Shown: positions 1 through 34,684 of the stretch, one piece after another
Layout of the letters: the number at the start of each line of letters is the position of its first letter
Position numbering within the stretch: the stretch's first letter is position 1
Assembly: GCA_020845895.1 (NCBI GenBank)
Contig: JADLEX010000113.1
Span: 1-35,580 of the forward strand
Source of the DNA: Deltaproteobacteria bacterium
GTDB lineage: Bacteria; Lernaellota; Lernaellaia; JACKCT01
Direction of reading: 5' to 3'
Length of the DNA stretch: 35,580 bases
Translations under genes and position numbers: made by a program
Notes under the pieces: generated by a model
What the model was told of the DNA's origin: nothing
Databases searched by the model: none
The model's input: only the letters and a program-made list of their open reading frames with translations

Positions 1-142
1 GCCGAACTCCCGGTCGAAAATCGACCAGTCGATCGCCTTGCCGAGCGGAATCAGCTCGTGGCGCTGGTTTTCGGATCTGGTTGACGTGGCTGCGGTAGAG
101 GTCGAAATCCGAGAGCGGCGGGGTTTGCTTTGGCGCCAGCTG
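1..142 (-). pseudogene. IS5-family transposase, N-terminal remnant (truncated by window edge and frameshifted)
   Basis: Read on the minus strand, two adjoining frames give PPLSDFDLYRSHVNQI and then NQRHELIPLGKAIDWS followed by IFDREFG. This resembles the N-terminal domain (DUF772) of IS5-family transposases, with its 'RHELV.LA..IDW' core. The two halves are in different frames; removing one base from the TTTT run at 68-71 joins them. The frame is closed upstream by a stop at 143-145 and no ATG is visible, so the start is missing or degraded. The rest of the gene would lie left of position 1. Family assignment rests on motif recognition only. It is probably a dead insertion-sequence fragment. 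Confidence 0.6.
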
Positions 143-387
143 TCACCGGTTTTGGGGGTTGTTATGCCCGATTCCCGGTGAAAAGAACTAGCACAAAATC
201 GACTATTTGTCCAGTGTTTTCAATCAATTAAGGCTTTTTTCAGGGACGACGCATGACGGGAGAGGGTGGCGTCTTCGATCCTGTCTTCGACCCTGAGGCT
301 CGGACCCGAATGGATCTTCGCGGGACGAGGTGAGGGTTCCGGCATCGTATTGCAGACGCGCTCGTCGGCGCTGACCGATCCATTTCG
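143..387. other. Non-coding spacer between transposase remnant and lipoprotein gene
   Basis: No convincing gene is present. Positions 150-245 are AT-richer than the main GC-rich genome and could include the outer end of the decayed insertion sequence, but no paired terminal inverted repeat can be shown because the other end is outside the window. No clear terminator for the minus-strand lipoprotein gene is seen here. Confidence 0.5.
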
Positions 388-1029
388 TTATTCTACCGAC
401 GACCGCACACACCTGACCAGATGTCCGAGGTCTCCACCTTCCGAATCGTCTCCTGTTTCGCATGAACCGACTCCGCCGGATTCATATCTCAAACACCATC
501 GGTTCTCAGTTGTGTTTGATCGCGGAGTGGAGGACCAGAACCAACCACAAGGAGCATCAAGTTCTTCAGCGCCATAACACCATTCATTTGGCCCCTTACC
601 ATACGAGCATCCTACGCAAGAGTCATTCTCACACGATTCACTGTCATAGCACTCATCCGTCGCCGCGCAGTCACCGCCTGCCATTGTCGCCGCGCAACCT
701 CGCACAAGGCTTCGCAGCTCCGAGATGGTCGGCAAGCGCCAGTCCGAAAAATTCCCCAGTGTCAGCACATCGCAATATTCCTCAGCGGCCCCGTATCTGC
801 GCCTGTCGCAAGAGCGCCCAGTCTGCCAGAGGAGGCCGGTGGAAACGTCCTCCCAGGTACCGCCGATGAACTCCTGATCGCTGCAGAGGTCGGCATCGTC
901 ATCCGGGTCTTGACCGTCGTCATCGTCATCGCTTTCGACGTCGTTGTCGTTGTCGTTGTCATCGCCTCCGCATGCATGGCTGAAGAGAACGAACAGCCCT
1001 ATTCCGATAACGAATAGTGCAAGTCGCAT
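388..1029 (-). CDS. DUF1566 (Lcl C-terminal domain) lipoprotein
   Basis: This 213-residue exported protein has a hydrophobic signal segment at residues 4-17 and Cys20 in the context SHAC, a non-canonical lipobox. An Asp/Asn-rich linker follows at about residues 22-47, typical of surface lipoproteins in deltaproteobacterial-grade genomes. The remainder matches the DUF1566/Lcl C-terminal pattern: 'W.DVSTGLLWQ', 'FSDWRLPTISELRSL', a cysteine-rich middle, 'WFWSST' and a terminal 'RCVR'. The domain is found in cell-surface proteins related to C-type lectin-like folds; the ligand is unknown. The ATG at 1029 is preceded by AAAGGA, and the gene starts 13 bases after the stop of the upstream metalloprotease gene, so it is probably the last gene of a three-gene unit. 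Lipid attachment is inferred, not certain. Confidence 0.8.
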   Translation of the reverse strand: MRLALFVIGIGLFVLFSHACGGDDNDNDNDVESDDDDDGQDPDDDADLCSDQEFIGGTWEDVSTGLLWQTGRSCDRRRYGAAEEYCDVLTLGNFSDWRLPTISELRSLVRGCAATMAGGDCAATDECYDSESCENDSCVGCSYGKGPNEWCYGAEELDAPCGWFWSSTPRSNTTENRWCLRYESGGVGSCETGDDSEGGDLGHLVRCVRSSVE

Positions 1030-1042
1030 GTTGGGGTTCCTT

Positions 1043-2212
1043 TCACTGACCGATCCCGTTGAAGTCCGCCCAGTCGTCCCAAACGGACTCGCTGACGCCG
1101 AAATCCATTGCGGCGTCCTTTATCAAATAATACACATCGTACCAAGGGTCCCAGTTCTCCGGATTGGATATATTATATATTTGTGCGATGTCCGAAACAG
1201 CGTAACCTTCGTCGCTATACATATCCCACCAAAAATGCACCCAGTCCCACTCCGTCGCACGACCAAAACACGTTTGACAGCAGTTCCCCTCTGAAATCCA
1301 ATTGCCGTCGTTTTCGCAAGATTCATTATTGTCATTGTAGTCACAATCTGCGCCACCTGCATCATTCCATGCAGCCACCATGTAAAATTCTGCAAACCCC
1401 TCCCACGAAGCACAACTTTGATACTCGAGACATCTGTTACAATGACACGTGTCACAAAAACGACTATCCCAGCAATCGCCAGTCCCCTCATAGGTGCAAT
1501 CATTCGTATGTCCATCGTTTCCATTTTTTTGATAAAGTATCTCATGTCCTGTTTCATGCGTTATGGTTGACTTTCTGTCAAGGTCATCTGGTCCGATCAT
1601 GATCCGATGATTTCCTCCATTCACTTGAAAACAGGAATTCGTGGACCCAGGGCACGGATCGGTAAAATACGTAATATCCAAGTTTGACAAGCCAGCATGG
1701 CGCCTGTCCACGGCCCAGCCCGCAGCCGCGAGGACGTTTGAAACCTTGAACGTGGAGTTGTACTGATGCACCAATGTATAAGTTCCATCGCGAAGCGGGT
1801 TCCAACTCGCACTCAGAACCTGCGCATGCCAAACCGGGTCCAAATAGTTGTCATAAACTTTTATCTCGTTGTTATTGCTCAACCGCGCCGCGGCATATAC
1901 TTTGATTTCAAAATCGTGAGCCGAATCCAGAGATAGTGTTGGCGTGCAATTTCCCGGGTTTGTGTAGGAGTTATAAATGACGCTACTTGTATCATTATCG
2001 CGCACACGCACATGTGGGCGAATGGCATCGTAGTCGTGCGGCGAAGAGAATTTGTAATAATCTCCCATCTCCCAATCTTCAAAATGCGTTTCATATTTGA
2101 TACAAATTATGATATCGTCGGTCGCGCTCGCCAACGTGACCGCAGAAGGTGACAACACAAACCAGATCACCGCGAGCAGGTGGACCAACGTCGAATTTCT
2201 CAGCGAACGCAT
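1043..2212 (-). CDS. Exported zinc metalloprotease-like protein with Cys-rich insert
   Basis: The ATG at 2212 is chosen because GGAGG lies 7 bases upstream and the product then begins with a standard signal peptide (basic MRSLRN, hydrophobic core about residues 9-28). A longer frame to 2356 would run into the preceding gene. The 389-residue product has HETGH at 219-223, a HEXXH zinc site, and EGFAEF starting at Glu271, which could supply the third zinc ligand as in gluzincins. Between them and just after lie twelve cysteines (239 to 315), suggesting a disulfide-rich or second metal-binding insert. The C-terminal 70 residues are rich in Trp and Asp. A secreted peptidase is the likely role; substrate and exact peptidase family are unknown. 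GC is low: 45 and 35 percent on two hand-counted 60-base lines. Confidence 0.72.
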   Translation of the reverse strand: MRSLRNSTLVHLLAVIWFVLSPSAVTLASATDDIIICIKYETHFEDWEMGDYYKFSSPHDYDAIRPHVRVRDNDTSSVIYNSYTNPGNCTPTLSLDSAHDFEIKVYAAARLSNNNEIKVYDNYLDPVWHAQVLSASWNPLRDGTYTLVHQYNSTFKVSNVLAAAGWAVDRRHAGLSNLDITYFTDPCPGSTNSCFQVNGGNHRIMIGPDDLDRKSTITHETGHEILYQKNGNDGHTNDCTYEGTGDCWDSRFCDTCHCNRCLEYQSCASWEGFAEFYMVAAWNDAGGADCDYNDNNESCENDGNWISEGNCCQTCFGRATEWDWVHFWWDMYSDEGYAVSDIAQIYNISNPENWDPWYDVYYLIKDAAMDFGVSESVWDDWADFNGIGQ

Positions 2213-2240
2213 AGCAAGCCTCCATTTTGCGTCAGTTGCA

Positions 2241-2921
2241 TCAGCGCGCTTCCTCAAGAACAATACCCGGTCCAATCTCCTCGATGAATTCACCTTTTGG
2301 TGTTTCTTCGAGAATTCGTCGGACCACGTCTTGACCTTCGGTTGTCGTGAAACCATACGGATATTTACTTCTGAGGGTGTCGTCGTTGATCAATTCGTAG
2401 TTTTTCAAGTCATCACGATAAACCAGAAAGCGCGTTGGAACTAATTGCGTGTAACGACGGCCGGTCTCCTCACGCGTGGCGCTGACGTAGCCGAGCAATT
2501 TTGTCGCATACTCAAATTGTTTCTCATGAAGGTTTCGGGCGTCACCGATTGAAATTTGAATGGATTTTTCCGAAAGAGGTGCCAGAAAAAACGCGTCTTG
2601 ATAGATTTTCTTCGAAAGGGGCCCGATTCTGGCAGTTATTTGTGCTTCAATATATATGCTTGTGTTTGTTGCTCCGCGAATGATCAAGGTCCCGGTGGGT
2701 GAATATCCATTGTCGCCGAGTAACGACGATTCTTCACTTACCCATGTAACATCTGCTCCCTCGCCCAGCCCTTCCTCTAATCCGTCTTCCGAACTGCCCG
2801 CTTGTACAAGGGTTGTTTTGTCAATTATGCTTTCGCCATCGTCAACGCTAAGATTGGATAATTGAAACACAATGATTCCTGTTAACAACAGGCCGATTGA
2901 CGTCGCTAGTATTAACCTCAT
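2241..2921 (-). CDS. Hypothetical protein with N-terminal membrane anchor
   Basis: This 226-residue protein is not recognised. Residues 3-20 form a hydrophobic segment that could be a signal peptide or anchor; no lipobox cysteine is seen. The acidic, Gly/Glu-rich stretch at about 43-57 looks like a flexible linker. The rest is soluble and would be periplasmic or extracellular. The ATG at 2921 is preceded by GGGAGA at good spacing. It is the first gene of the low-GC minus-strand unit, and its stop lies 28 bases before the metalloprotease start, so joint transcription is likely. No catalytic motif is visible; a partner, substrate or inhibitor of the protease is possible but only a guess from position. 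Confidence 0.65.
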   Translation of the reverse strand: MRLILATSIGLLLTGIIVFQLSNLSVDDGESIIDKTTLVQAGSSEDGLEEGLGEGADVTWVSEESSLLGDNGYSPTGTLIIRGATNTSIYIEAQITARIGPLSKKIYQDAFFLAPLSEKSIQISIGDARNLHEKQFEYATKLLGYVSATREETGRRYTQLVPTRFLVYRDDLKNYELINDDTLRSKYPYGFTTTEGQDVVRRILEETPKGEFIEEIGPGIVLEEAR

Positions 2922-3506
2922 AATGTTCTCCCAACGTCAGGTGGTTGCAAGGGAATGCCGCGCTGCGGCAGATCGACCGGGAAATCACGGTCACACTCGC
3001 AGTCCAAGCGCTCCATGAAGCTACGCCGCGAGGCGGCACCCCCGCGCGGCAAATTGCCTACTCGACGATGAGCCAAGACAGAGCATCCGAAAAAGGGGTC
3101 TGTCTTTCGATTCGAAGGATGGAATAGGAGGGTGAAGGGGCGACGGGGGCGTGTCGGTTCGGGGCCATTCTTGCGCGGACGCAAGCCGAATTGTTTGCGC
3201 CGAAGCATTTGTGAAGGGCCTTTTCGTCGCCGGGTCGAAGCTATCGGCCACTCATCCCATGCAGATTTCGCAACTGGATTAGTGTAGCGCAGTCGTGATT
3301 CATATGTCAAACAAAAAATCAAGTACTTTTGGGGGAGCAAAGCTGGCCGTTATTCGTCGACACCCCTCAGCCCCAAATTCCTGGCCGCACGCCTCGAACA
3401 TGGCGGCAGCCCGCACGCGTCGAACGAGAACGTGTGGCCGAGACGGCGCTCGGCGGTCCCACGGATCACTTTGATCGCGCGGTCGCGGCGGTGGGGACCG
3501 CCAAAA
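2922..3506. other. Intergenic stretch with no supported gene
   Basis: This spacer lies between the divergent low-GC unit and proS. Open frames exist on both strands but have low-complexity Arg/Pro-rich products, no ribosome-binding sites and no recognisable domain. A small perfect inverted repeat, TGCCGC-GCT-GCGGCA, lies at 2956-2970, where it could sit in the leader of the minus-strand unit. Base composition changes here from the low-GC unit to the GC-rich backbone, so this may be the junction of an inserted segment. Confidence 0.5.
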
Positions 3507-3535
3507 TTGACGCCCGCGCGTCGAACCCCTATAAG
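3507..3535 (+). promoter_or_regulatory. Sigma-70-type promoter for proS
   Basis: TTGACG at 3507-3512 and TATAAG at 3530-3535 are separated by exactly 17 bases, five of six consensus matches in each box. Transcription would start near 3542, giving a leader of about 30 bases with AAGGA at 3559-3563 before the proS ATG at 3571. Confidence 0.65.
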
Positions 3536-3570
3536 GTCCGCGAACCGGCTCCCATTGCAAGGAACGATCG

Positions 3571-5289
3571 ATGCGCTATTCGCGGATGCTCATCCCCACG
3601 CTCAAGGAAAACCCCTCCGAGGCCGAGGTCGTCAGTCACACGCTCATGATGCGCGCGGGATTGATCCGGAAACTCGCGGCCGGCATCTACGACGTGTTAC
3701 CGCTCGGGTTGCGGTCGTTTCGCAAGTTCGAGGCGATCGTTCGCGAGGAGATGAACCGCGCGGGGGCGCAGGAAGTCGTATTGCCGGTCATCCAGCCCGC
3801 CGAACTGTGGCAGGAGACGGGCCGCTGGCAGAAATACGGTCCGGAACTGCTGCGCATCAAGGATCGGCACGGCCGCGAGTTCTGCTTTTCGCCGACCGCC
3901 GAAGAGGTCATCACCAACGTCGTGCGACGCGACGTGCGCTCGTACCGGCAGCTTCCGATCAACCTCTACCAGATCCACACGAAGTTTCGCGACGAGATCC
4001 GCCCTCGCTTCGGCCTGATGCGTGGCCGCGAATTCGTGATGAAAGACGCTTACTCCTTCGACGCCGACGAGCCCGGCGCCGACAAGAGCTACGACGCGAT
4101 GCGCAAGGCGTATCACCGGATCTTCGAGCGCTGCGGCCTTCGTTTTCGAGCCGTCGCCGCGGACTCGGGCCAGATCGGCGGCGCGTTTTCGTCCGAGTTC
4201 ATGGTGCTCGCCGCGACGGGCGAATCCGCCGTCGCGTCGTGCGATGCGTGCTCCTACGCGGCAAATCTGGAGAAGGCGTCCACGCGCCCACCGGTGGGCG
4301 CCGAAAAGCCCGCTTCGCCCGCGGCGCTCACGCGCGTCGATACCCCCGGTGCGCGAACGATCGAAGAGGTCACGGCGTTTCTGGGCAAGACGGCCGATCA
4401 ACTCCTCAAGACGCTCATCTTCGTCGCCGATGGCACGCCGGTCGCCGTGCTCGTTCGCGGGGACCGCGAACTCAACTACGTCAAGCTGCAAAACCTGCTG
4501 GGCGCGGACGAGCTGCTGATGGCCGATCCCGAGACCACGCAGCGCGTCACCGGCGCTCCGGTCGGATTCGCCGGACCGATCGGGCTCTCCATCCGCGTCA
4601 TCGCCGATCTCGAAGTCGAGCACATGGCCGACTTCGTCGTCGGTGCGAACGAGGCCGACGCGCATTTCACGGGCTGTAACATCGGTCGCGATTTCCCCGC
4701 GCCCGCGTTCGCCGATTTGCGCAACGTGGTCGACGGCGACGCATGCCCCGTGTGCGAGGGACGCTTGCAACTCGACCGCGGCATCGAGGTCGGGCACATC
4801 TTCAAGCTCGGCACGAAATACTCGGAGTCGATGCACTGCGTGGTGCTGAACGACAAGGGCGAGGAAGTGCCGGTCGTGATGGGCTGTTACGGAATCGGCA
4901 TTGGACGCACGGTCGCCGCCTCGATCGAGCAGAACCACGACGACGCGGGAATCATCTGGCCGATGCCGCTCGCGCCGTATCACGTCGCGCTCATCGCGGC
5001 GTCGCCCAAGGACGACGTTTTGGCCTTCGCGGAGAAACTCCACGACGACCTCGAGGCGGCGGGCGTCGAGGTGCTCTACGACGACCGCGACGAGCGCGCG
5101 GGCGTGAAGTTCAAGGACGCGGATCTGATCGGGTTGCCGCTGCGCCTGACGGTCGGCGCGAAGGGGCTGGCCGAGGGGTTCGTCGAACTCAAGCGCCGCG
5201 CCGAACCGGGAGCGCCCTTCGAGCCCGTGCCCGTCGCCGATGTTGTCGAGCGGGTCCGGTCGCTGGTCGCGGGTGCGATGAACGTGTGA
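3571..5289 (+). CDS. proS: Prolyl-tRNA synthetase, bacterial type with editing insertion
   Basis: ProS charges tRNA-Pro with proline in the cytoplasm. The 572-residue product has the usual length of the bacterial form (ProRS with INS domain). It begins [13 protein letters not shown], then shows class II motif 2 in '[17 protein letters not shown]' (about residues 140-157) and motif 3 in 'GCYGIGIGR' (about 438-446). The INS editing domain that removes mischarged alanine lies between them (about residues 225-400), followed by the C-terminal anticodon-binding domain ('[14 protein letters not shown]'). The ATG has AAGGA 7 bases upstream and a good promoter in front. pyrF starts 4 bases after its stop, so the two are probably cotranscribed. 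No missing key residue was noticed. Confidence 0.97.
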
Positions 5290-10344: not shown

Positions 10345-11859
<1,515 letters not shown>

Positions 11860-26728: not shown

Positions 26729-27337
26729 ATGCGAAGGATCCTAAAAACACCGATCGACCGCAAACGTGGCGGCTATTCGTTCATCGAGATCATGATGGTG
26801 CTCCTGATCGCGAGCATTGTCTTCGTCGGCTGGTATCGCACCATGTCGTGGACGCGTCACCGCGCCATGCTGGCCGTCTTCATGTCCGACATCCGGCAGG
26901 TCAAGATCGCGGCGGGGCGTTTCCAAACCGACGTCGGCGCTTACCCGCCCGACGTCAACCGCGGCATCGACCCCGGCATGATCGACAAGTTCGGCTGGCA
27001 GACCGGCGGCCACTCTGCCAAGTGGAATACCCTGGATCTGAGCGGTTGGAAGGGACCATATTTGGCCGAATGGAAAACGTGGAAGCGCAACCCCTGGGGA
27101 GGGCTCTACGACTGGGACAACTACGAACCCGGCTACAACTACATGGGCATCACGGGTGGTGCGGTCTATCTGACGCTCAAGCCCAGCACCTGGGGCGGTC
27201 AGGACGGTTTGCCCAAACCCATGTACGAGGACATGCTGGAAGACTTGGGACTCGACACGAGTTCCTGGGAGTACGTCGTCGCGGTCCGAATGGGCCACTA
27301 CCCCAGCACCAACCAAAACCTGGGCGGCGCCCACTAG
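26729..27337 (+). CDS. Type II secretion GspG-like pseudopilin
   Basis: This 202-residue product has a type IV prepilin leader: a basic stretch, then cleavage expected after Gly15 in RKRGG/YSFIE, with the conserved Glu at +5 (residue 20). The hydrophobic helix IMMVLLIASIVFVGW follows. The mature part resembles GspG-type pseudopilins: 'RFQTDVGAYPPD', 'GWKGPYLAEW' and 'NPWGGLYDW', which in GspG surround the calcium-binding loop. It is longer than typical GspG (about 140), with extra residues around 'STWGGQDGLPKP'. ATG 26729 has GAGGGGAGAG upstream; an earlier ATG at 26699 would lie almost at the predicted transcription start. No other secretion genes are adjacent; it converges on the minus-strand pair at 27353. 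Confidence 0.82.
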   Translation: MRRILKTPIDRKRGGYSFIEIMMVLLIASIVFVGWYRTMSWTRHRAMLAVFMSDIRQVKIAAGRFQTDVGAYPPDVNRGIDPGMIDKFGWQTGGHSAKWNTLDLSGWKGPYLAEWKTWKRNPWGGLYDWDNYEPGYNYMGITGGAVYLTLKPSTWGGQDGLPKPMYEDMLEDLGLDTSSWEYVVAVRMGHYPSTNQNLGGAH

Positions 27338-27352
27338 CGGAGGATCATCCCG

Positions 27353-27799
27353 TCAGTTGTGCCGCTCGTTGTGCAGGCACCACCACCGCCCCGCGCCGAA
27401 CCAGTAGTCGACGACCGGAGCATCCTTGGGCGGCTTTTTGTTGAGCGGGCAGACGATCAGCCCGGCATGATGCCGTTCGTCGAGGTCGATCACCATTTTT
27501 TGCGGATACGTCTCGCCCGGCGCGGGAAGAAAGATCAGCACCATCCTGCGCGCGCCGTCCGGAAGCGTCATCAGATAACCGGTGGACAGCAGGGGAACCT
27601 CGATGTTTTCCTCCGCCAGGACGCTCCACAGCGTCTCGTCGGCGGCCTGCTGATTGAGATGGCACATCTTCGCGTAGCGCATGTCGCGGTACTCGCCGAT
27701 CTTGAAGACGAGCAGGAAGCCCAGCACCACCGCGGTCAGCAGCAAAAGCAGATCAATCAGGGCGATTCCGCGTCGCCGACTGTGCGCGCGATGCATCAT
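27353..27799 (-). CDS. Atypical prepilin-like protein
   Basis: This 148-residue product starts MMHRAHSRRRG, then IALIDLLLLLTAVVLGF. That is a prepilin-type leader with cleavage expected after Gly11 and a long hydrophobic helix, but Asp16 replaces the usual Glu at +5. The rest is a small periplasmic domain of about 105 residues with two late cysteines ('IVCPLNKKP' and 'WWCLHN') that may pair. The start overlaps the stop of the zinc finger gene upstream (ATGA), so the two are translationally coupled. Function is unknown; the pairing suggests a pilus- or secretion-like assembly with its partner. Confidence 0.7.
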   Translation of the reverse strand: MMHRAHSRRRGIALIDLLLLLTAVVLGFLLVFKIGEYRDMRYAKMCHLNQQAADETLWSVLAEENIEVPLLSTGYLMTLPDGARRMVLIFLPAPGETYPQKMVIDLDERHHAGLIVCPLNKKPPKDAPVVDYWFGAGRWWCLHNERHN

Positions 27800-28416
27800 T
27801 CGATCGCCAGTTCCCCGGCTCCCGTCGCGTAAAGCTTGACGAAGCGGAATTGGTCGGCACGCGGCAGCGAGAGCACAAAACCCGACTTCGGTTCGAGCAC
27901 GTAGTTGAATCGCTCCTCGGTCTTCATGATCTTCGGCTCGACCGGCAGATAGTCCGGAACGAGCGCCTTGATGTCCGCGGGATATCGCCCCTTGGCAGCG
28001 CGGTACTGGAAGATCTTCGCCAGCACGTGCGTGAACTGCGGCGCCGGCGTGTCGTTCTCCCACAGGCGGGGATCGCTCACGGAAATGGTCGCCTGAGCAT
28101 AGTCCAGACGGCTATTGATCCACAGGTGCGCCAGGACGAGTGCGACGACGGCCAGCACGAGCGGCAGGCTGACCTGCACATTGAATCGTTCCCGCCAAGA
28201 GACGCGATGCGCCCGGTCGTGCGCGCGCCGCGCAAACTCCTGCTGCTCCTCGACCGCGCGGTTGGAGTGCGCGTCGACCGCCGTGTCGACGTTGCAGGTC
28301 GGGCACGTGATCTGATCGCTGTCGCCCGAAAAGACCATGCAGTCGCCGCAGACCGGCTGGCCGCACAGCGAGCATTCGTAGAGCGCGTCCTCGCGAGGAT
28401 GGCGGTAACACTTCAT
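27796..28416 (-). CDS. Zinc finger, one-membrane-segment protein with pseudopilin-like ectodomain
   Basis: This 206-residue product begins with a B-box-like zinc finger: C3, H6, C15, C18, C23, C26, C38 and C41. A charged linker (43-78) and one membrane segment (about 82-100) follow. The C-terminal part (101-206) contains 'FQYRAAKGRYPADIKALVPDYLP', which resembles the start of GspG/pilin globular domains ('YP.....L...YLP'). Thus the finger would be cytoplasmic and the pilin-like part periplasmic. The ATG at 28416 has GGAGAA upstream and begins the product exactly at the finger; a longer frame exists but is unsupported. It is the first gene of a coupled pair with the atypical prepilin. I do not know a named family for the whole protein. 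Confidence 0.7.
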   Translation of the reverse strand: MKCYRHPREDALYECSLCGQPVCGDCMVFSGDSDQITCPTCNVDTAVDAHSNRAVEEQQEFARRAHDRAHRVSWRERFNVQVSLPLVLAVVALVLAHLWINSRLDYAQATISVSDPRLWENDTPAPQFTHVLAKIFQYRAAKGRYPADIKALVPDYLPVEPKIMKTEERFNYVLEPKSGFVLSLPRADQFRFVKLYATGAGELAIE

Positions 28417-29650: not shown

Positions 29651-30430
29651 TCAATCGTGGAAGACGAACTCGCGCCGCCCTGAGCGCGTCCCACGCTCGC
29701 GCGTTCCCAGCGCGTGAATCGTGGTGAAGGTGTAGCCTTCGGAATCCACCGAGCCGAAGATGAACGTCACCCCGCCGTCGGCCGCGAGATTCGGGTCGTA
29801 CACCAGCAGCGGCGCGAGCGAATCCGCATAACCCGCGCGAGCGTTTGCGCCGGATTTGCGGCGTTCCTCGCTTACGACCTCGAGCTTCGCGCGCAGCCGC
29901 GCCTCGTCGTCATCGTCGTAGAACGCGTCCGGCAGCGGGCGCGGCACCAGCATCAGGTAGAGCAGGAGGATCACGACGTTCGCCAACGCGCCGCCCGCCG
30001 CCCGGCGACGACCCGTCAGATGCCCGCGCCGCCGCTCGATGTCGACAAACGCCGCGAGCGAAAACGCGAGCCCGACAAGGGCGATCGCCGGATGCACCAC
30101 CGCGGCGACGAGCGCCAGCAGCGCGCCGATCGTCGCGAGCACGCTGATCTCGGTGGGTGGAGCCAGCGCGCGCGGCGCGAAGGGCGGCACCAGTGCGACC
30201 GCGCCGCACTCGGGGCAGGCGGCTTCGTCTCCGGGCTCGAACGCGCTGACGTCGAGCTTTGATCCGCAACCCGCGCACGCGACGAGCCGCACGGCGGGCG
30301 CGCCGCGCGCCGACACAACCTCGACGCGAAACGCGCTTTGGCATGCAGGACATACGGCCCGCTCGCCGATCGCGAACGCGCCGGTGTCGATTTCGCTGGC
30401 GCAATTCGGGCATGGGCCGATGCGTTCCAC
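29651..30430 (-). CDS. Double zinc-ribbon membrane protein with C-terminal ectodomain
   Basis: This 259-residue product (GTG start at 30430, GGGAG upstream) begins with two zinc ribbons of identical spacing, C-x2-C-x16-C-x2-C: C7, C10, C27, C30 and C52, C55, C72, C75. They share a 'D..AF..G..A.CP.C' pattern, like MJ0042-type fingers, so one is probably a duplicate of the other. Hydrophobic segments follow at about 93-112 and 113-128, and another ('LANVVILLLYLMLV') near 148-162. The last 90 residues form a soluble domain ending 'VTFIFGSVDSEGYTFTTIHA', which resembles the C-terminal part of some prepilin-like proteins. Function unknown. It lies 12 bases downstream of the crotonase gene, probably in one transcript. 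Confidence 0.68.
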   Translation of the reverse strand: MERIGPCPNCASEIDTGAFAIGERAVCPACQSAFRVEVVSARGAPAVRLVACAGCGSKLDVSAFEPGDEAACPECGAVALVPPFAPRALAPPTEISVLATIGALLALVAAVVHPAIALVGLAFSLAAFVDIERRRGHLTGRRRAAGGALANVVILLLYLMLVPRPLPDAFYDDDDEARLRAKLEVVSEERRKSGANARAGYADSLAPLLVYDPNLAADGGVTFIFGSVDSEGYTFTTIHALGTRERGTRSGRREFVFHD

Positions 30431-32620: not shown

Positions 32621-32677
32621 ACCACCCGCTTCCTTATGCGCGACGCGCGTGGGCGCATCGGCTATCATGCGCGCGAA

Positions 32678-34684
32678 ATGGCCGCGACAACGCACCGCTA
32701 CAGCGTGATCGTCCGGCGCAAGCGCGTCGATGCGCAGACGCTCGAGGCTCGCGTGCGCGATCTGCACGAACGGCTCGGCGTTGATCCCTACATCACGCGC
32801 GTGGCGCTCTCGGGCGACGGCCTCGCGCAGATCGTGCGCGACGACGATCGGGCGAAGCTCGAACAGGCCGTGCGCGCGCTGCGCGACATGGGGTACGCCG
32901 CGGCGATCGTGGCGTCGCCGCCGCCGAAGCGCGACGTGATCGACGTCAAACGATTCGAGATCTCGTCGGGCGGCATGCGCTTTCACGGGCGGCGCGGATC
33001 GGCCGAGGTGACGGGCGCGACCGCCGTCATCGCGGTGCTGGCGGGGATGGGGGCGGACGTCGTCAACCGGCTCATCAAGCGCGCGGCGCTCACCGGTTCG
33101 GCGGGCGTGCTGTCGGACGCGGAGAAGATGGACCTGCTGCTCGGCGCGTCGCCGATTCTCGATCTCTACGTGATCGCGCCGGGCGCGGCGGCGCTCGGGC
33201 CGCTGCGCATCGAGCCCGGGCGCTACGACCCGCGCTCGTTGGGCGACGTCGCCTCGACATCGTCGCGCGAAAACCTGCAAACGTTGTTGCGCCTCATCGG
33301 CGAGCGCGCCGCGCGGCTCGACATCGAGACTGACTTCGGCCTGTGCCAGCTTCCGCACTGCCGATACGACCCCTCCGTGAACGACCCCGAGGTGCTCGCA
33401 CGAAACCGCGCCCAGCTCGTCCACTACGGCGCGTATCTGGTGGAGCTTTTCCGTCAGGCGGGTCCGCCCGATGCAGCGAAGGCGTCGCCCGTGTCGCCGG
33501 TCGAGGCCGCCGTGGCGGGCGCGCTCGCCGCCGGCGCCGTTGCCCCGCGTGCGATTGCGGATGACGCCGTGGCGCTTGCCGCCGGCGCGGCGTTCATCTC
33601 GGCCGCGCGGGCCGCTTCGGTTTCCGCGCCGGAATCGACCGGCGAGACGACGTTCCTGCCGCCGCCGCCGATCGACCTGAAGCAGTGGTCGTCGCCGTGG
33701 ACCTCGCCCCACAGCCTGTTCATGATCGTCTATTGGTCGGCGATGGTCGCGTGGTTCACGCTCGCGTCCGCGGCGCACGACGTGTCGGTCGGGCCGCTGC
33801 GTCATGTGGGGCTCGACCTCGGTGCGCTGTTTTTCTGCGTGGCGGCGGTGGCGTTTTACGAGTCGTTCCGCGCTCTACGCGTGAAGCGCTGGATCGACCA
33901 CACGCCCACGTCGAAGGCGCGGTCCGTCGCGATGGGCATGGCCGAACTGCGCGGCACGGCGCGCCGCGCGTACAACCTACTCACCCCGCTCACGAGCCAG
34001 GCGTGCGTGCATTACCGGCTGCGCCGCTACGAAAAGGTGGCGACGAGCAAGGGCGAGCGCGAACGCGTCACCGGCGACACCTCATGCGGCCCCGTGCCTT
34101 TTTATCTCGACGACGAGACCGGCACGGTGCTCGTCGATCCCCTCGGCGCGAAAATGAAACCCACGCACACGCAGCACATCGACGGCGAGTACCGCACGCC
34201 CTGGGGCGCGTCGCTCGTCACCGAGGGCAACGTCCGCTACGTCGAGGAGTGGATTCCCGAGGGGGCCTCGCTCACGGTGCTCGGTCAGGCGACGGACATG
34301 GAGCGCCCGGTGGTGGCGCTGCGCGACCGCGTCGCGGCCAAGCTGCGCGCGCTCAAGGGCGACCGGGCGCGGCTGGCGAAATATGCTGCGAACCGCGACG
34401 TGCATATCGACGAGGGCGAGTGGGAAACCGCGCGGCGGGACGCCGAACGCGAGGCCGCGCGCGAGGCCGCGGAGGGCGATCCGCTGGCCGCGCCGGATGA
34501 GACGGCGATCGCCGTGAGAAAGCCCGATCACGGCGCGTTTCCGTTCCTCATCGCGCGTGGCGAGGGCGGGCGAATTTCGACGCGCTACGGCCTCGTCGCG
34601 TTCGCGTGGATGATCGCGTCGATCGTCGCGGCGCTCGTCGGCACGGCGGCGTTGCTCGACTGGATTCGTTTCGGCCCGGCCTGA
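32678..34684 (+). CDS. GIDE-domain membrane protein with long N-terminal region
   Basis: A protein of 668 residues from ATG 32678 (an in-frame ATG at 32636 would add 14; neither has a clear ribosome-binding site). Residues 1-260 are soluble and not recognised; they include 'RYSVIVRRKRVDAQTLEARV' and a Gly/Ala-rich part. Residues 265-330 are low-complexity, Ala-rich. Two membrane segments follow (about 346-366 and 378-397). The GIDE domain covers about 408-560: 'HTPTSKARSVAMGMAELRG', 'LTSQACVHYRLRRYEK', and 'PFYLDDETGTVLVDPLGA'. A charged helix and a last membrane segment (about 636-660) end the protein. GIDE domains occur in mitochondrial MUL1-type proteins and in bacterial membrane proteins next to LemA, as here. 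No RING domain is present. Confidence 0.8.
   Translation: MAATTHRYSVIVRRKRVDAQTLEARVRDLHERLGVDPYITRVALSGDGLAQIVRDDDRAKLEQAVRALRDMGYAAAIVASPPPKRDVIDVKRFEISSGGMRFHGRRGSAEVTGATAVIAVLAGMGADVVNRLIKRAALTGSAGVLSDAEKMDLLLGASPILDLYVIAPGAAALGPLRIEPGRYDPRSLGDVASTSSRENLQTLLRLIGERAARLDIETDFGLCQLPHCRYDPSVNDPEVLARNRAQLVHYGAYLVELFRQAGPPDAAKASPVSPVEAAVAGALAAGAVAPRAIADDAVALAAGAAFISAARAASVSAPESTGETTFLPPPPIDLKQWSSPWTSPHSLFMIVYWSAMVAWFTLASAAHDVSVGPLRHVGLDLGALFFCVAAVAFYESFRALRVKRWIDHTPTSKARSVAMGMAELRGTARRAYNLLTPLTSQACVHYRLRRYEKVATSKGERERVTGDTSCGPVPFYLDDETGTVLVDPLGAKMKPTHTQHIDGEYRTPWGASLVTEGNVRYVEEWIPEGASLTVLGQATDMERPVVALRDRVAAKLRALKGDRARLAKYAANRDVHIDEGEWETARRDAEREAAREAAEGDPLAAPDETAIAVRKPDHGAFPFLIARGEGGRISTRYGLVAFAWMIASIVAALVGTAALLDWIRFGPA

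Follow-up and report, generated by a model that had tools for sequence, protein, structure and literature searches.

A translationally coupled zinc-finger protein and Asp+5 prepilin in Candidatus Lernaellota, a possible accessory module of type IV filament machines

Results

The gene pair

The window, the whole 35,580-nucleotide stretch of DNA that we analysed, comes from a 5.0 Mb draft genome (99.5% complete) of Candidatus Lernaellota (FEN-1099). Two adjoining genes on its reverse strand are the subject of this study. The product of the upstream gene (27796-28416) has 206 residues and consists, from the N-terminus on, of a zinc finger, a basic stretch, a single transmembrane (TM) segment and a C-terminal GspG-like domain. 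The downstream gene (27353-27799) encodes a 148-residue prepilin-like protein with an Asp at +5 (G11/I12ALID16). The TGA stop codon of the former and the ATG start codon of the latter share ATGA at 27796-27799; the raw DNA at the junction reads CGATCGAATGATGCATC, also given as GAATGATGCAT. Such an overlap is predicted to couple translation, so that the two proteins would be made together. This anatomy had been described in a first-pass annotation of the window, and it is borne out by the raw DNA and the translations. Direct searches of Pfam and NCBIfam gave no informative family match for either gene.

The zinc-finger protein

The sequence of the 206-residue protein starts with MKCYRHPREDALYEC and ends with GELAIE. 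Its first 41 residues (28294-28416, reverse strand) form a putative cytoplasmic zinc finger, MKCYRHPREDALYECSLCGQPVCGDCMVFSGDSDQITCPTC, with the ligands C3, H6, C15, C18, C23, C26, C38 and C41. All eight are invariant in an alignment of five Lernaellota homologues, and the eight positions are kept in 7/7 aligned proteins from three lineages. The B-box family zf-B_box (PF00643) matches the finger with 21.0 bits (E 4e-4), below the Pfam cut-off of 24.1. The last ligand pair of a B-box is H..H. Here it is C..C, which departs from the eight-ligand B-box pattern with its final His pairs. A PDB sequence search with the finger alignment returned RING/TFIIH-like matches only. By these measures the finger appears to be B-box/RING-like, short of formal PF00643 membership.

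The TM segment (about residues 82-100; 28117-28173, reverse strand) was assigned from hydropathy and charge count, and the predicted structure has a helix at residues 84-104. Its upstream flank is positively charged. The segment is preceded by a zinc-binding and basic region of about 80 residues, and no class III signal is present near the TM segment in any of the seven homologues checked. This agrees with the earlier statement that an N-terminal finger precludes prepilin cleavage. In pilins, one continuous helix runs through the TM segment into the ectodomain. In the predicted model, a proline-containing stretch (residues 105-113, pLDDT < 50) separates the TM helix from that of the ectodomain. 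Therefore, the lack of a class III signal, the long region before the TM segment and the split helix together indicate a protein that stays in the membrane rather than a filament subunit. Its sequence is that of an uncleavable anchor and is incompatible with a cleaved prepilin, and both sequence and model predict that it should remain membrane-bound, outside filaments.

The remainder of the protein, about residues 121-206 (27799-28056, reverse strand; GRYPADIKALVPDYLP), is a predicted periplasmic GspG/pilin-like ectodomain, delimited with the model, a fold search and profiles. It carries the GspG-like pattern Y....G.YP..I..L.P.YL, and a direct Pfam search of the window's protein gave no T2SSG match. 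The model of the whole protein is of low confidence (mean pLDDT 71, pTM 0.43), with most blocks of the ectodomain at 72-88. In a PDB fold search with this model, three of the best nine matches are pilins or pseudopilins, namely the minor pilin PilE (4noa), a type IV pilin (4d40) and GspG (3gn9); their E values of 0.14, 0.47 and 2.2 are not significant. The ectodomain profile aligns with the T2SSG domain of a related fusion protein described below (G275) at E 7e-5 in a profile comparison, and the profile of the whole protein also recovers true prepilins (L182, L183). A neighbouring pseudopilin at 26729 and the GspH/I/J subunits gave no significant match. Several weak lines thus agree that the ectodomain is pilin-like, by what is probably remote homology. 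The first-pass annotation had proposed the same, and the domain did not turn out to be unrelated to pilins.

The partner prepilin

The 148-residue protein has the N-terminus MMHRAHSRRRG/IALIDLLLLL. By direct reading, a class III leader peptide of 11 residues (27767-27799, reverse strand) ends in Gly at -1, with the cleavage region R10-G11/IALIDLLLLLTAVVLGFLLVF, and a hydrophobic tract follows Gly-1. Every prepilin from the six genomes has Gly-1, Asp+5, the same three cysteines and a C-terminal histidine, and the C-terminus has the conserved motif CPLx...DYW..G.WWCL....H. All 14 profile-detected prepilins of the window's genome have Glu at +5, whereas the prepilin of the pair has Asp. Its invariance in six of six genomes against this background indicates that Asp+5 is a lasting trait of the family rather than noise. 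It is not unique to the family: a degraded duplicate of a GspG-like prepilin that adjoins the pair in another Lernaellota genome (G002) has it as well (GFSILD).

Pfam gave no match to this protein, N_methyl included. Its model consists of a helix (residues 9-64) and five strands (pLDDT 86). A fold search with its ectodomain found no pilin among the best matches, none of which was usable, and a PDB sequence search with the prepilin alignment matched only the N-terminal helix of geopilin. When 84,980 genomes were scanned for the C-terminal motif, only two Lernaellota contigs and one false positive, in an alpha/beta hydrolase, were found; a preceding scan with the single sequence found no matches.

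Conservation in Lernaellota

Among the seven Lernaellota genomes compared, the pair is found in six, invariably adjacent and in constant order. The junction is ATGA in five of them and a 1-bp overlap of stop and start in the sixth. Homologues in six genomes with 30-48% identity and invariant ligands argue that the two genes are not chance open frames, and we reject that explanation. The pair stayed together in all six genomes that have it, and a finger gene with a prepilin gene also occurs in two other lineages (below), so the conservation on which the earlier note had staked its case was found.

The seventh genome (G003, 98% complete) has neither gene and retains type IV filament/pilus ATPases and a prepilin peptidase. 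The pair is therefore not a core part of the machinery. The survey for such machinery proposed earlier gave a divided answer: a prepilin peptidase and GspE-type ATPases are encoded in every Lernaellota genome of the set, but the pair does not lie beside T4P or T2SS operons. It lies near division and housekeeping genes, ftsZ-recO-rlmB or proS-pyrF. The window's genome (G000) has a single prepilin peptidase, encoded on contig C57 at 123806-124129, and all the required filament machinery.

The surroundings and the genes themselves vary. In three Lernaellota genomes (f3), the gene of a HAMP/HisKA sensor kinase precedes the pair by about 60 bp on the same strand, and no kinase gene is found beside the pair in the f1 genomes, the window's included. 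In G002 (L009:8859-9477 and 10588-11388) the zinc-finger frame is broken near the linker, possibly by an assembly error, and the prepilin frame is open. In G001 (L008:8870-9436) the prepilin leader is lengthened to about 50 residues with RSFASLRMTNRRLRFL, which resembles a translated dispersed repeat.

Homologues and related modules in other lineages

A wide profile search that covered 386 genomes added two full-length zinc-finger homologues from other lineages, in G012 (E 1.9e-16) and G109. A second wide search centred on G012 gave no additional full-length homologue. In G012, the zinc-finger gene overlaps a prepilin gene by ATGA, and the prepilin signal is GFTLVELIITI with Glu at +5. In G109, the overlap with a prepilin-like gene is 14 bp, again with Glu at +5 (GLTNLEWLITI). 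An alignment of the partner prepilins from the three lineages showed no shared ectodomain beyond the N-terminal helix. What is conserved is therefore the pairing of the anchored protein with a prepilin.

The G012 pair (L126:3078-8349, L146) is divergent from the gene of a 1337-residue sensor kinase. A PilB/GspE ATPase gene (MshEN and T2SSE domains) lies about 4 kb off on the divergent side, behind the kinase gene, which provides the machinery gene near a pair that the Lernaellota loci lack. After the kinase gene come PilB/GspE and two genes for response-regulator-like proteins. Genes resembling ftsZ, ftsA, ftsQ, murC, murG, ftsW, murD and mraY are found on the same contig. The pair is within about 3-8 kb of ftsZ in G012, in the window's genome and in G002; this proximity may reflect old common inheritance of the pair.

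The wide searches also found related modules. The G275 protein (L135:2983-3627) combines a B-box-like finger, a TM segment and a T2SSG domain (Pfam E 2e-9). Its gene has no neighbouring prepilin gene and is flanked by genes for a cyclic-nucleotide-binding-like protein and an RNA polymerase sigma factor-like protein. In G014 (L128:3764-4603), a TM segment and GspG-like module (profile E 3.5e-9) are followed by a PilP domain (E 7e-13); an AMIN-domain gene lies about 2.4 kb downstream of this fusion. A DUF4388 domain precedes a TM segment and GspG-like ectodomain in G110 (L176:2675-3802) and G246 (L177:3436-4536). The G110 gene directly follows a gene whose product has an N-terminus like the GspE/MshE N-terminal domain. 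GspG-like modules are also present in many larger membrane proteins and lipoproteins unlinked to pili. Most other B-box matches (rhomboids, kinases, two-TM proteins and others) were set aside as not pilin-related.

Other genes in the window

A 259-residue protein encoded at 29651-30430 (reverse strand), about 1.2 kb from the pair and directly following an enoyl-CoA hydratase gene, has a double zinc ribbon (DZR match), about three TM segments and a PilA-like ectodomain. Its C-terminal domain shares 48-55% identity with the ectodomains of PilA-type pilins from Lernaellota, with E values as low as 3e-15, and none of 1000 shuffled sequences scored better than E 2.4. No class III signal was found at its N-terminus. 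On sequence grounds it appears to be a stronger fusion of zinc module, membrane segments and pilin domain than the 206-residue protein, with another zinc module and another pilin.

A GspG-like pseudopilin with Glu at +5 is encoded on the forward strand at 26729-27337, divergent from rlmB. We judged it to be a neighbour outside the pair. It is beside and divergent from rlmB in four of the genomes (window, L085, L086, L087), lies on contigs apart from the pair in the three f3 genomes, and is absent from G003 and from G001, which is 99% complete and has the pair. We therefore rejected it as a third member.

Discussion

The gene pair is real, conserved and undescribed, and it likely belongs to the type IV filament world. 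Literature searches returned no paper on B-box zinc fingers together with type IV pili, nor on DUF4190 together with pilin. The ectodomain of the zinc-finger protein resembles GspG/PulG (T2SSG, PF08334) in its helix and its GxYP and L.P.YL pattern, but the protein lacks a class III signal and has a cytoplasmic zinc domain of about 80 residues before the TM segment. The G275 protein is an analogue in which the same type of finger precedes a significant T2SSG domain, whereas the window's protein has no direct Pfam match. PilN, PilO and PilP, as well as GspL and GspM, are likewise bitopic and join the cytoplasmic and periplasmic parts of their machines, and the G014 module is fused to PilP; however, the window's protein matches none of these families. 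The pilus region of the window's genome, on contig C58, has its own PilM-like gene.

Among described systems, TfpY comes closest, by analogy of working rather than by family membership. The TfpY gene accompanies pilin genes, and its product, which binds minor as well as major pilins, stays outside the filament and aids assembly; TfpY/FimB-like proteins of Pseudomonas, Acinetobacter, Neisseria and Dichelobacter are thought to act as chaperones or adapters in the start of assembly (PMC11841053). Like TfpY, the zinc-finger protein is membrane-anchored and encoded beside a pilin gene, and is not itself a pilin. In contrast, TfpY has three TM segments, another beta fold and no zinc finger, whereas the window's protein has one TM segment, a finger and a GspG-like ectodomain.

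The prepilin resembles the minor pilins and tip pseudopilins PilHIJK, GspHIJK and TcpB in its class III signal and, in the predicted model, in a long N-terminal helix and small beta domain, but it has Asp+5 and sits outside any pilHIJK or gspHIJK cluster. Its Asp had been taken as the mark of a tip pseudopilin lacking Glu5. GspK/PilK-type tip subunits have no acidic residue at +5 and carry a large helical insertion. The prepilin of the pair retains an acidic +5 residue, has only 148 residues and is without that insertion, which rules out a GspK/PilK tip subunit. The apparent GspK-type subunit in the gspG-K cluster of this genome has Val at +5 (GVALLV), in line with a reported tip-capping subunit of type 4 filaments without Glu5 (PMC10191384). 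In TcpB, a minor pilin of Vibrio cholerae, E5D causes a slight loss of function, and E5Q and E5V are clearly worse (PMC5207764). Glu5 is not needed for prepilin processing (PMC4471445). The kept charge, the mild E5D phenotype and the Val of the GspK-type subunit suggest a minor subunit still able to dock, not specifically one at the tip. The partners outside the phylum, with Glu+5, also speak against the earlier interpretation.

We propose, with a probability of about 45%, that the pair serves a type IV filament machine, either for type IVa pili or for type II secretion, as an accessory module in which an uncleavable pilin mimic holds its cognate minor prepilin and the zinc finger couples to the machine. 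The two proteins would be translated together, as the overlap of their genes predicts. The prepilin may then be inserted into the membrane, cut after the Gly by the single prepilin peptidase and kept as an inner-membrane pilin. The zinc-finger protein is predicted to be a permanently anchored mimic; it lacks a cleavage site and has a linker that contains proline, and should therefore not enter the filament. Its ectodomain could bind the cognate pilin as adjacent pilins bind each other, and stabilize it at the assembly site. The cytoplasmic finger may dock on the extension ATPase, the platform or a regulator, and the complex could help to start or gate filament assembly. The Asp+5 would keep the acidic docking group and may weaken docking, as expected of a rarely incorporated minor subunit.

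This proposal is based on the adjacency of the genes in 6/6 genomes and their joint loss from the seventh, the same pairing of finger and prepilin in two other lineages with PilB/GspE near the G012 pair, the fusions of the anchored module to PilP and T2SSG, the machinery in the genome and the TfpY precedent. We count against it the distance of the Lernaellota pair from pilus operons, G003 without the pair, G275 without a prepilin and the broken frame in G002, as well as the lack of a pilin fold match for the prepilin ectodomain and the pTM of the zinc-finger model.

The main rival is a sensor of the pilin inventory or of surfaces, an explanation that we find doubtful. The ectodomain and TM segment would read whether the partner pilin is free, assembled or under load, much as PilS reads PilA in Pseudomonas, and the finger would signal to a kinase or regulator. 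PilS, the PilA-sensing kinase, is a proposed reader of pilin in the membrane, and direct intramembrane contact between PilA and PilS is attributed to Kilmury and Burrows (2016) in PMC6058289. The kinase gene just upstream of the pair in all three f3 genomes, the large sensor kinase and response regulators adjoining the G012 pair, and the DUF4388 modules fused to the same type of TM segment and ectodomain are all consistent with sensing. However, the zinc-finger protein is not a kinase and its finger has no output domain, and the f1 genomes lack an adjacent kinase gene.

The distance of the Lernaellota pair from pilus operons could also mean that a generic periplasmic GspG-like fold was reused on a zinc-finger anchor for another envelope task, with the prepilin retained in the membrane. 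The GspG-like modules in many proteins unlinked to pili fit such reuse, but in each of the three lineages the partner gene encodes a prepilin, and G012 has PilB/GspE next door; we consider reuse unlikely. The scenario of the first-pass annotation, a scaffold for a separate, dedicated pseudopilus that is built with the 26729 pseudopilin and tipped by the Asp+5 protein, now appears highly improbable. In the window and in G002, the 26729 gene lies close to the pair; the link did not hold up beyond that, since the constant neighbour of this gene is rlmB, the f3 genomes carry it on separate contigs from the pair and G001 does not have it. The acidic group retained by Asp and the Glu+5 of partners elsewhere weigh against the tip assignment.

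Beyond the accessory module proposed for the pair, a wider undescribed class is suggested by the 29651-30430 fusion together with the G014 protein that carries PilP and the two proteins, from G110 and G246, that carry DUF4388. Tentatively, these proteins may be membrane-fixed pilin mimics, often translated with a cognate prepilin, through which type IV filament machines are gated or coupled from inside to outside. Their common design would be a pilin/GspG ectodomain on an uncleavable anchor, with a swappable cytoplasmic module such as a B-box-like finger, a double zinc ribbon or DUF4388. If so, the window might carry two members, differing in both zinc module and pilin ectodomain. A natural uncleavable mimic with a cytoplasmic docking domain, translated with its partner prepilin, would be a direct handle on two open questions, the start of type IV filament assembly and the coupling of the cytoplasmic motor to membrane pilins. 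Pilin-like ectodomains can occur in non-filament proteins, which annotation based on the class III signal alone overlooks.

Elsewhere in the window, positions 1-4000 have a GC content of 52-55%, compared with about 68% for most of the contig, and possibly are foreign or fast-evolving cargo; a gene for an Lcl_C-domain lipoprotein-like protein lies within this region at 388-1029. On the forward strand, the gene at 32636-34684 has a match to the GIDE (E3 ubiquitin ligase-like) domain (E 3.5e-9), here in a bacterial genome.
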